Origin: Candidatus Micrarchaeum sp.
GTDB lineage: Archaea; SpSt-1190; DYHY01
NCBI GenBank assembly: GCA_020723935.1
Contig: DYHY01000031.1
Span: 1 to 8,734 of the forward strand
Length of the DNA stretch: 8,734 nucleotides
Reading direction: 5' to 3'
Within the stretch, counting starts at the first letter, position 1; each line of letters opens with the position of its first letter. Below are positions 3,648-8,734 of this stretch, piece after piece. The position numbers and the translations under genes were made by a program. Below the pieces are notes generated by a model that ran no database searches, had not been told where the DNA came from, and saw nothing but the letters and a program-made list of their open reading frames with translations.

Positions 3648-3672
3648 CCGCGCGGCGGGATTGGCGCACGAA

Positions 3673-4344
3673 ATGCCCAGGAAACCATCCCAATCGCACG
3701 ACAAGCAGGGCGCCAAGGAGCCGATAATCCTGATAGCGATCGCCGTCGTCCTTTTCGCGGCCGCCGGCTTCTTCCTCCTGAGGGGCGCATCCAGGCCTAG
3801 CGGCCCTTCTTCCGCCGCGACGACCACCGTCCAAGGGGCGGTCGGCGGGCAGACCGACGGGCACGGTTGCCTCGTCGCAGCGGGCTATTCCTGGTGCGAG
3901 GCCCTCGGCAAATGCATCAGGCAGTGGGAGGAGGACTGCACCGCCGCGGGCGCTACCGAGACGACCCTGCCCCCCGCTCTTCCGGAATCGCCGACGACTT
4001 CTCCGGGCGGTCCGGAGACGATCTCTCCGCCGACAGTGACAAGCGTCGCCGAAGAAGGCCCCAGCTACACGGACAAGGGCTTCGGAGGCTTGGAGATACG
4101 CGTGTTTGACGCATCGACGAGGGCGACGCTCTACGACGCGACGGTCTTCGTCACTGATTCCGCAGGCAAGCCTGTGGTCTCCCTGGGCACGCAAGCCGGG
4201 ACGGCGTCCTTCGTCCTCCTGGTGGGCGGGTATTCCGCCAACGCCACGGCCCTCGGCTACAAGTCGGTGAAGCAGCCCGTGATAGTCTCCGAGGGAGTGA
4301 ACAGGCAGATCTCCATAGGGATAGGCAAGAGGCCCCCGGGCTGA
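3673..4344 (+). CDS. Membrane-anchored extracytoplasmic protein with four-Cys motif and PEGA/carboxypeptidase-regulatory-like domain
   Basis: I do not recognise this as a named protein. From the ATG at 3673 it has 223 residues: a short charged cytoplasmic start (1-17), one hydrophobic segment (18-36, IILIAIAVVLFAAAGFFLL), then an outside part. The Lys/Arg-rich N-terminus and Arg37 after the segment make it a signal anchor rather than a cleaved signal peptide, though orientation is inferred. After a Ser/Thr-rich spacer comes a compact Cys motif, GC(66)LVAAGYSWC(75)EALGKC(81)IRQWEEDC(89), able to form two disulfides or bind a ligand. A Thr/Pro/Ser linker (about 90-130) follows, rich in possible O-glycosylation sites. 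Residues 136-223 alternate like a small beta-sandwich (GLEIRVFDAST, ATVFVTDSAGK, GGYSANATALGY, IVSEGVNRQISI) resembling PEGA or carboxypeptidase-regulatory domains of surface proteins. It has its own promoter and ends one base from the thrS stop. Confidence 0.72.
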   Translation: MPRKPSQSHDKQGAKEPIILIAIAVVLFAAAGFFLLRGASRPSGPSSAATTTVQGAVGGQTDGHGCLVAAGYSWCEALGKCIRQWEEDCTAAGATETTLPPALPESPTTSPGGPETISPPTVTSVAEEGPSYTDKGFGGLEIRVFDASTRATLYDATVFVTDSAGKPVVSLGTQAGTASFVLLVGGYSANATALGYKSVKQPVIVSEGVNRQISIGIGKRPPG

Positions 4345-6655: not shown

Positions 6656-7573
6656 TTACGCCGGACGCGGGCGAAGGCTGTGTAGGACGGAAAAGCCGTC
6701 GATTTCTGCGACGACGAAGCCGTCGGCAGGCGATTCGACCGAAAGGAGGAGCGGCCTCAGCCCGTCCCGCTTCCCGCCCCTCGGAACGACCGAGACGCTC
6801 TCGCCGCGCGCCCGCATCCTCAGGCGCCTCCCGCCGGACTCTATGGTGAAATGCCCGACGTCCGGATGGAGGTAGACGTTTGCCGCGTCCACGCGCTTTT
6901 CTGTCGAGTACCCCCGCCGGCCGAATACCGGATGAGCCAGTCGTGCAGCCACCTGTCCTGCGCGCCGTTCCCGGCGTAGAACGCGACGTCGGCGTGCAGG
7001 GGGCCCGGCTCAATGTCCGCGCATATCGGGAACCAGAGCTCTAGCAGCCTCTCCTCGCCCATTTCCGCGGAGACGACGGAAGGCTTGCGCAGGCCGTAGC
7101 CCTCCGGCATCGCGTCGAGGATTTCTGGAGGGACGCGGCCGTGATGCTTCGCCTTTTCCGGACGGAGGAGATCGAAGCCAGATATCCACGTGCCGCTCTC
7201 GGGATCCGGGACGACGTACTGCTGCGGGAATTCGGCCGCGCCGTCGCTCCCCTTCTTCGGGAACAGGGAAGTCCTCCTCTCCCCTCCAGGAGGAGTGTAG
7301 GCGACGACGTCAACGCAGGAGACGCACGGGCGCCCGTCCGATTTCCCGGCGTAGATGCGCCCGTTGAGGACGAGGACGGATTTGGCCGGGACAGCCATCC
7401 CGCGCACGGTCTCGAGGAACTCCTGGGGCTCGGAAAGCGGGACGCCGAACTCCCAGGCGACTGTCGCCCGGGGCTCGTATTCCCCGAGGAACCGATTCGG
7501 ATCCCCCCGAAACCTCCGCGAGGGTGTGCCAGCCCGGCTCGTTGCCCTCCGAATATATCCCGAGGACCTTCAT
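6656..7573 (-). pseudogene. Divergent nitrilase-like protein, second of a tandem pair, two frameshifts
   Basis: The start ATG at 7573 overlaps the stop of the upstream gene as ATGA, so the two are translationally coupled. The product is spread over three frames. Removing one G from the minus-strand G6 run at 7503-7508 joins LAEVSG to DPNRFLGEYEP; adding one G to the G5 run at 6911-6915 joins IRYSAGGG to YSTEKRVDAANVYL. The shifts cancel, and 918 bases then encode 305 residues ending in TAA. Features of the repaired protein: Glu41 in VAWEFGVP, LVLNGR, a Lys pair at 106-107 (LFPKK), Cys184 in ELWFPICADIEPG, ADVAFYAGNG, and a C-terminal beta-rich part. The order Glu, Lys, Cys and the strand pattern recall carbon-nitrogen hydrolases, but identity is too low to be sure. 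It shares FPICxDxEP and the Glu41 position with its upstream neighbour and is longer by an insert between them. Pseudogene or sequencing error. Confidence 0.55.
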
Positions 7574-8334
7574 TTCGAAGGGGCTTCTCCCTTCAGCCTG
7601 GGTGCGAACGGCACGTCGTAGAGCTCTATGAGCGCGGACCTGTCGGGCGAGACGGAGGTCGCCCGGCCGATCCCCTTCCCCTCGAACTCGGAGAGGCGCC
7701 GGAAGCCGCGGCCGCCGTACGCGTCCCTCAGGTGCTCGGCCTCCTCGCCTTTGGGCGAATCCGATGCGGGCTTCGCGAGATAGTAGACGCCGCGCGTTCC
7801 GGCAGAGGGGACTCTCGAGTCGGCGCAGAAATAGGCCGAATGCTTCTTCCTCACGAGGCCGCGCATCGTCCTGCAGTTGGACGGATAGAGCGCGAGGTCG
7901 AAGAGGCCGGTCTTGGGCTCGACGTCAAGGCATATCGGGAAGTAGCCAGTTATGATCCCGCCGGCGACCTCCAAGTCCAGGGTCGCGGGCCTCCTGAAGC
8001 GGTAGTTTGCGTTGGAATAGGCCTCCCACCCGGGACCGAGATCCGGCGCCCCGCTCCGGTCAGCCCTCACGGCGCTGACGCATCCGATGTATTCGCGCCC
8101 CCTCGCCAGAAGGAGGCCCCTGCCGTTGGCGACGACGATGCCCCCGCGCGGCGTTTCGATGGAAAGGACCGAGCGCATGAGCTCCAGGAGGCCGGAAGGG
8201 GGCGCGGCCCATTCCCTCGTAAGGACAATGTCGGGCTCGTGCGCCTCCAGGTCCCGCCTGATCTCGGCTTCCATCCCGTCCAGATCGTCCCAGAGCGACC
8301 CGTTGCCCCAGCCGTAGTAAAGAAGCGCCTTCAC
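7570..8334 (-). CDS. Divergent nitrilase-like (carbon-nitrogen hydrolase) protein, first of a tandem pair
   Basis: A 254-residue protein with an intact frame starting at a GTG (8334), with AGGGGA six bases upstream. I do not recognise a named family with certainty. The order of elements fits the nitrilase superfamily: an N-terminal strand and helix ending in EPDIVLTREWAAP (candidate catalytic Glu41), GIVVANGR and EYIGCVSAVRADRSG where nitrilases have the yNsa.vidpdG strands, then GYFPICLDVEP (candidate nucleophile Cys135) and DLALYPSN, like the ICyD...P segment, and near the end GIGRATSVSPDRSALIE, like the G.S.ivdP.G segment. The usual catalytic Lys is not obvious; the matching stretch NANYRFRRP has only Arg, so it may be inactive or use different chemistry. 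No membrane segment or signal peptide. Its stop overlaps the start of the paralogous downstream gene (ATGA), pointing to a heteromeric or sequential function. Other alpha-beta hydrolase folds are possible. Confidence 0.5.
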   Translation of the reverse strand: MKALLYYGWGNGSLWDDLDGMEAEIRRDLEAHEPDIVLTREWAAPPSGLLELMRSVLSIETPRGGIVVANGRGLLLARGREYIGCVSAVRADRSGAPDLGPGWEAYSNANYRFRRPATLDLEVAGGIITGYFPICLDVEPKTGLFDLALYPSNCRTMRGLVRKKHSAYFCADSRVPSAGTRGVYYLAKPASDSPKGEEAEHLRDAYGGRGFRRLSEFEGKGIGRATSVSPDRSALIELYDVPFAPRLKGEAPSK

Positions 8335-8370
8335 GCAGTTCCCCTGAAGAAAAAAATGACTATTCCATAG

Positions 8371-8467: not shown

Positions 8468-8541
8468 GGGGCGATGGTCTAGCTTGGTATGATGCCAGCT
8501 TCGGGGGTTGGAGGTCGGGGGTTCAAATCCCTCTCGCCCCA
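8468..8541 (+). tRNA. tRNA-Pro, anticodon CGG
   Basis: The cloverleaf folds completely. The acceptor stem GGGGCGA pairs perfectly with TCGCCCC (8534-8540), and A8541 is the discriminator. The D arm has a GG-containing loop (GCTTGGTAT). The anticodon stem CCAGC/GTTGG closes loop TTCGGGG, giving anticodon CGG at 8502-8504, which reads CCG proline codons; G37 follows, as in proline tRNAs. The variable loop is 5 bases, and the T arm GGGGG-TTCAAAT-CCCTC has one G-U pair. No intron and no encoded CCA, so CCA is added after transcription. The last 12 bases (8530-8541) also begin the 75-bp tandem repeat that follows. Confidence 0.95.
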
Positions 8542-8734
8542 CTCATTTCCTCGCTTACGCGAGGGTTTTTCGATTCTTGGTTCGAGACCTCTCCCTTCAG
8601 TCGGCCTCTCGCCCCACTCATTTCCTCGCTTACGCGAGGGTTTTTCGATTCTTGGTTCGAGACCTCTCCCTTCAGTCGGCCTCTCGCCCCACTCATTTCC
8701 TCGCTTACGCGAGGGTTTTTCGATTCTTGGTTCG
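8530..8734 (+). repeat. 75-bp tandem repeat beginning in the tRNA-Pro 3' end (2.7 copies, open at window edge)
   Basis: Units lie at 8530-8604, 8605-8679 and 8680-8734, the last cut by the window end after 55 bases. All visible bases are identical between units. Each starts with the 12-base tRNA-Pro 3' end CCTCTCGCCCCA, followed by ACTCATTT-type spacer, the terminator hairpin with T5, then GGTTCGAGACCTCTCCC, which looks like a worn T-arm, and CTTCAGTCGG. Only the first unit belongs to a complete tRNA. The array could be a true tandem duplication at a tRNA, a product of site-specific integration at the tRNA 3' end, or an assembly loop at a contig end. Confidence 0.9.
8549..8570 (+). terminator. 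Terminator of tRNA-Pro
   Basis: A perfect 6-bp stem, CCTCGC and GCGAGG, with loop TTAC, followed by G and TTTTT. It starts 8 bases after the tRNA end and is well placed to stop the tRNA transcript. Because it lies inside the 75-bp unit it recurs at 8624-8645 and 8699-8720. Confidence 0.7.

Follow-up and report, generated by a model that had tools for sequence, protein, structure and literature searches.

Two overlapping genes on one contig

The window analysed here is one whole contig (C11) of 8734 bases, from an archaeal draft genome of 1.14 Mb in 47 contigs. It carries two genes, which we call P1 and P2, between a tRNA-Pro gene and a threonyl-tRNA synthetase gene (Table 1). The ATGA overlap of the two genes given in a preliminary description of this DNA was recovered, the common stretch being exactly these four bases, and suggests translational coupling. 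Ahead of P1, a sequence resembling an archaeal TATA box and another resembling a Shine-Dalgarno sequence both lie at fitting distances; as read from the sequence, they are putative expression signals.

Table 1. Features of the P1/P2 locus, in positions of the window
Feature	Position	Strand	Remarks
tRNA-Pro gene		opposite to P1/P2	upstream of P1
TTTATAA	8371..8377	(-)	archaeal TATA-box-like, 37-43 bases 5' of P1 start; putative
AGGGGA	8340..8345	(-)	Shine-Dalgarno-like, 5 bases ahead of P1 GTG; putative
P1 gene	8334..7570	(-)	254 aa, GTG start, orphan protein
P1 Glu41 codon	8212-8214	(-)
P1 Cys135 codon	7930-7932	(-)
P1 FPICLDVEP motif and downstream Asp	7897..7941	(-)	motif pattern search
ATGA stop/start overlap, P1/P2	7570..7573	(-)	putative translational coupling
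P2 gene	6656..7573	(-)	~305 aa; ATG at 7573, stop 6656-6658; frame broken twice; P1 paralog
G6 run	7503..7508	(-)	P2 frame +1
P2 Glu41 codon	7450-7452	(-)
P2 stretch with insert, K138 and K140	7108..7284	(-)	~residues 97-155
P2 Cys184 codon	7021-7023	(-)
P2 FPICADIEP motif and downstream Asp	6988..7032	(-)	motif pattern search
G5 run	6911..6915	(-)	P2 frame -1
Threonyl-tRNA synthetase gene		(-)	downstream of P1/P2, gap ~246 bases or more

P2 is continuous only with two single-base frame changes of opposite sign, both in G-runs, and once these are allowed no further stops are met. Between about 7513 and 7000, one frame has a high third-codon-position G+C, and from about 6913 onwards a different frame does; since this G+C tracks the shifted frames, both parts of P2 look coding. 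That the sole available copy has two frame breaks would fit a true, decaying pseudogene, with P1 alone functional. We consider this unlikely, given that the one-base breaks at G-runs cancel each other and leave no other stops, that codon-position G+C is intact on each side of them, and that another broken gene in the same 8.7 kb points to assembly error. The halves of that gene, which encodes a CYTH domain (1666-2470), lie in two different frames with a switch near 2050, and PF01928 positions 2-48 are matched in one frame at E 0.028 and positions 77-177 in the other. Because this gene on the same contig is also split, assembly indel errors are the likeliest cause of the breaks in P2, and since the breaks read as draft-assembly indels, the gene is probably intact in the living organism. 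Programmed frameshifting was set aside, as P2 would need it twice, with opposite signs, and a second gene of the window is broken as well. A MazG-like gene (844-1290) also seems to be split over two frames, near 950-970; no family was found for its first half.

Kinship of P1 and P2

P1 and P2 are paralogs. Two collinear segments are aligned by blastp, residues 1-90 at E 7e-8 and residues 111-180 of P1 with 159-233 of P2 at E 1e-5, with 28-30% identity in the aligned stretches. The preliminary description, in which the pair shared little beyond one Glu, one motif and similar strand patterns, thus understated their likeness; its picture of coupled, unequal paralogs is supported by the blastp kinship, the ATGA overlap and the large insert in P2, which was located as described. 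Two shared features that it named are also in place: Glu is residue 41 in both proteins, and FPICxDxEP surrounds a Cys in both, C135 of P1 and C184 of P2, with the longer form FPICxDxEP(x5)D present in each (chance matches expected in the window, 0.00). Further common residues include N11, N70, R72, R114/R162 and N153/N202, and there are two invariant Cys, C85/C86 and C135/C184, not a single one; the invariant Arg R114/R162 sits 21-22 residues N-terminal of the second. The remark that P1 has no obvious catalytic Lys was correct, because there is not one Lys between K2 and K141.

Search for relatives

Conservation of the pair in related archaea, a point raised earlier, was not found: no relative of P1 or P2 was detected in 61 and 394 archaeal genomes, which include nine other genomes of the same phylum, nor in two other phyla (156 and 23 genomes), nor in phage and plasmid records (plasmids with P1 as the query). 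Peptide-pattern scans of IMG/VR, and peptide and motif patterns run over 84,980 GTDB genomes, gave no confirmed relative. As a DNA pattern, FPxCxDxEPx5D picked out nine stretches in the 84,980 genomes, none of the nine in a nitrilase-like or P1/P2-like frame, and its single viral match sits in an unrelated protein. By these searches P1 and P2 are an orphan pair; pattern scans catch near relatives only, so distant relatives may exist.

Comparison with the nitrilase superfamily

The preliminary description took P1 and P2 for very divergent nitrilase-like proteins. A Glu-Lys-Cys triad and a four-layer fold have been described as common to the nitrilase superfamily (PMC1199592, PMC5500890); our search of the open-access literature brought up no pertinent work on nitrilases that are inactive or heteromeric. 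The Pfam, NCBIfam, PHROG and PDB-sequence libraries yielded no usable family match for either protein: a PHROG match to an anti-CRISPR at E 0.075 is noise, and the one designed protein returned by a profile search against PDB sequences, with no stretch past the limit, was taken as noise as well. Up to E 1, the PF00795 profile matched neither P1 nor the pieces of P2, and both were absent from the matches of a whole-genome search carried to E 10, which found another nitrilase. This one recognisable nitrilase of the genome seems to be split over two contig ends, L006/L007 (C23/C24), the end of C23 matching PF00795 positions 1-40 and that of C24 positions 61-254. An archaeal profile built from some 30 nitrilases collected from relatives left P1 and P2 undetected by HMMER and hhalign, and profile alignment to these sequences gave nothing above shuffles; as a control, an accepted nitrilase withheld from the profile reached Z 13, and a very weak one had Z 2.4, or 4.5 with local alignment.

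Single motifs are nevertheless alike. Taken as a pair, the proteins resemble PF00795 in the order in which strands are predicted for the N-terminal half, in a Glu that would close strand 2 and in a Cys within an I-C-x-D string that would follow a later strand, and the Glu-Cys spacing of P1 (94) is close to that of the superfamily; they differ from it in showing no detectable profile similarity, in having no Lys at the usual triad position, in the Glu-Cys spacing of P2 (143) and in the stretch from the Cys to the next common Asp, which at 11 residues is too short for the nitrilase post-Cys helix (Cys to PS is 23 residues in 28 of the 28 reference nitrilases used). Scored against nitrilase motif blocks, Glu41 of P1 ranks first of 244 positions for the Glu block and Cys135 second of 245 for the Cys block; in P2, Cys184 ranks first of 296 and Glu41 only 23rd of 295. 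Chained as Glu-Lys-Cys at natural nitrilase spacing, the blocks of P2 score marginally (16 of 400 shuffles reach it) and use residues other than Glu41 and Cys184, and those of P1 score no better than shuffles, 142 of 400 reaching it.

A different register was considered, in which P1 would be a nitrilase with the triad E41-K141-C170 and P2, Cys-less there, its inactive partner. KTGLFD resembles KIHLFD and CADSRVP resembles CYDIRFP, and once the spacing is loosened the score of the four blocks rises to 17.7, where shuffles give -8.5 +/- 5.7; this 17.7 equals two weak accepted nitrilases and is reached by 0 of 1000 shuffles and 0 of 174 other open reading frames. This signal is gone at natural spacing, however. 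From Glu to Lys the distance is 100, whereas 28 nitrilases have 59-75, and from Cys to PS it is 19, whereas all 28 have 23. Neither K141 nor C170 is common to P2, and the lead was found after looking, as one of several registers tried; we regard it as very unlikely.

Structure models and competing folds

The P1 model was made by AlphaFold2 from the two-row P1/P2 alignment, without templates; both it and a model of P2 have low confidence scores (pLDDT 36 and pTM 0.34 for P1, pLDDT 36 and pTM 0.27 for P2). The P1 model has the order E-H-E(Glu41)-H-E-E-E-E, followed by Cys135. Foldseek returned nothing under E 0.08 for it, with unrelated top rows. VIA-align was then applied to Foldseek's 1000 best chains, and nitrilase-superfamily entries make up 33 of the 50 PDB neighbors listed, with Z 3.9-5.4 over 113-129 residues, where values below 8 may reflect merely a common arrangement. 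These entries span amidase, formamidase, Nit2, Nit3, carbamoylase, the glutaminase domain of NAD synthetase and Lnt, and cover the P1 model from residue 1 to about 136-158 with collinear N-termini; one other row passes residue 158, through poor loops only. Such agreement across many nitrilase branches would be hard to get from noise. The P2 model has no nitrilase among its structural neighbors and is uninformative. The proposed nitrilase-like fold has thus fared unevenly: profiles and motif spacing speak against it, the low-confidence model of P1 leans towards it through the VIA-align neighbors, with Foldseek null, and the model of P2 lends it nothing.

P1 and P2 may instead form a small lineage-specific family with a fold of its own, or an unassigned one, in which the likeness of Glu41 and FPICxDxEP to nitrilase motifs would be fortuitous, both a Glu at the end of a strand and an IC.D string being common features. 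The empty library searches, the absence of relatives from the genomes searched and a natural-spacing motif test equal to shuffles make this quite possible, if doubtful; the strong enrichment of nitrilase structures among the neighbors of a model built template-free argues against it. Descent from the EEP (DNase I-like) superfamily (PF03372), also an alpha-beta-beta-alpha sandwich, with loss of the catalytic residues, would explain the start of P1 (strand, helix, PDIxxxxE), as strand 2 of EEP proteins ends in Glu (PDIxxLQE). The P1 stretch EPDIVLTRE fits the EEP LQE block (9.3 bits) better than the nitrilase Glu block (4.2 bits), and only 2 of 400 shuffles reach P1 with a chain of four EEP blocks. 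P2, however, gives no match (its score is reached by 240 of 400 shuffles), local profile alignment does no better than with shuffles, and of the hallmark set (Asn in strand 1, Glu in strand 2, GDxN, SDH) the Glu block alone scores well, in P1 only, with GDxN and SDH absent. No EEP fold is among the 50 VIA-align rows listed for the P1 model. We judge this descent to be distinctly unlikely.

A possible heteromer

The reading that we tentatively prefer, while holding it to be rather doubtful as a whole, is that this orphan pair arose by duplication, is translated together and has a nitrilase-like sandwich, and that the two proteins may assemble as a heteromer. P1 and P2 would be the tandem duplicate of one gene, transcribed from the one putative promoter, with translation coupled through the ATGA overlap. 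The weak P1 model and the motif positions suggest an alpha-beta-beta-alpha sandwich of the nitrilase type as the most likely fold for both, in which Glu41 would end strand 2 and Cys135/Cys184 would follow a later strand. The conserved R114/R162 may replace the usual catalytic Lys, or the predicted activity may be lost or altered; R114/R162 and C85/C86 are further candidate functional residues.

Co-translated paralogs often assemble together, and P1 and P2 probably form a heteromer, because they appear to be co-translated and are unequal. Since the standard Lys is absent from both, P1 and P2 may together make up an altered Cys enzyme, or one subunit may be a scaffold; the division into an active and a structural partner, as proposed earlier, is one that we only infer. 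A bolder version, in which the two would be new lineage-restricted, obligate heteromeric enzymes of nitrilase fold, both subunits keeping Glu and Cys, with Arg replacing the catalytic Lys, strikes us as highly improbable. If the sandwich is real, P1 and P2 would belong to a branch so remote that profiles miss it, marked by a changed triad and by coupling to an unequal partner; if it is not, they would be an ordinary orphan pair in a small archaeal genome.

An adjacent pair of nitrilases occurs in a genome of the same class (L041, 8225-8983 and 9082-9903). It is like P1/P2 in comprising two neighboring paralogs; unlike them, it passes the PF00795 cut-off and has Glu, Lys and Cys, and it shows no significant similarity to P1 or P2. 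It belongs to a stretch (L041:4877-11504) with three tandem GCS2-like genes (glutamate-cysteine ligase family 2; one of them scanned), then the two divergent nitrilases (252 and 273 aa) and an amidohydrolase, which looks like a C-N ligase/hydrolase cluster.

Other features of the contig

The product of the gene at 3661-4344 has a hydrophobic stretch at its N-terminus and, below the cut-off, a weak match to a carboxypeptidase-regulatory-like domain (PF13620). At 8530-8734 lies a perfect 75-base tandem repeat of 2.7 copies, which begins inside the 3' end of tRNA-Pro and is cut by the contig end; it may represent an array of integration sites or an artefact of the assembly. Each unit holds the tRNA 3' end CTCTCGCCCCA and a terminator-like hairpin, and pieces of it, 20-27 bases long, are found again at 49645-49720 of contig C36.
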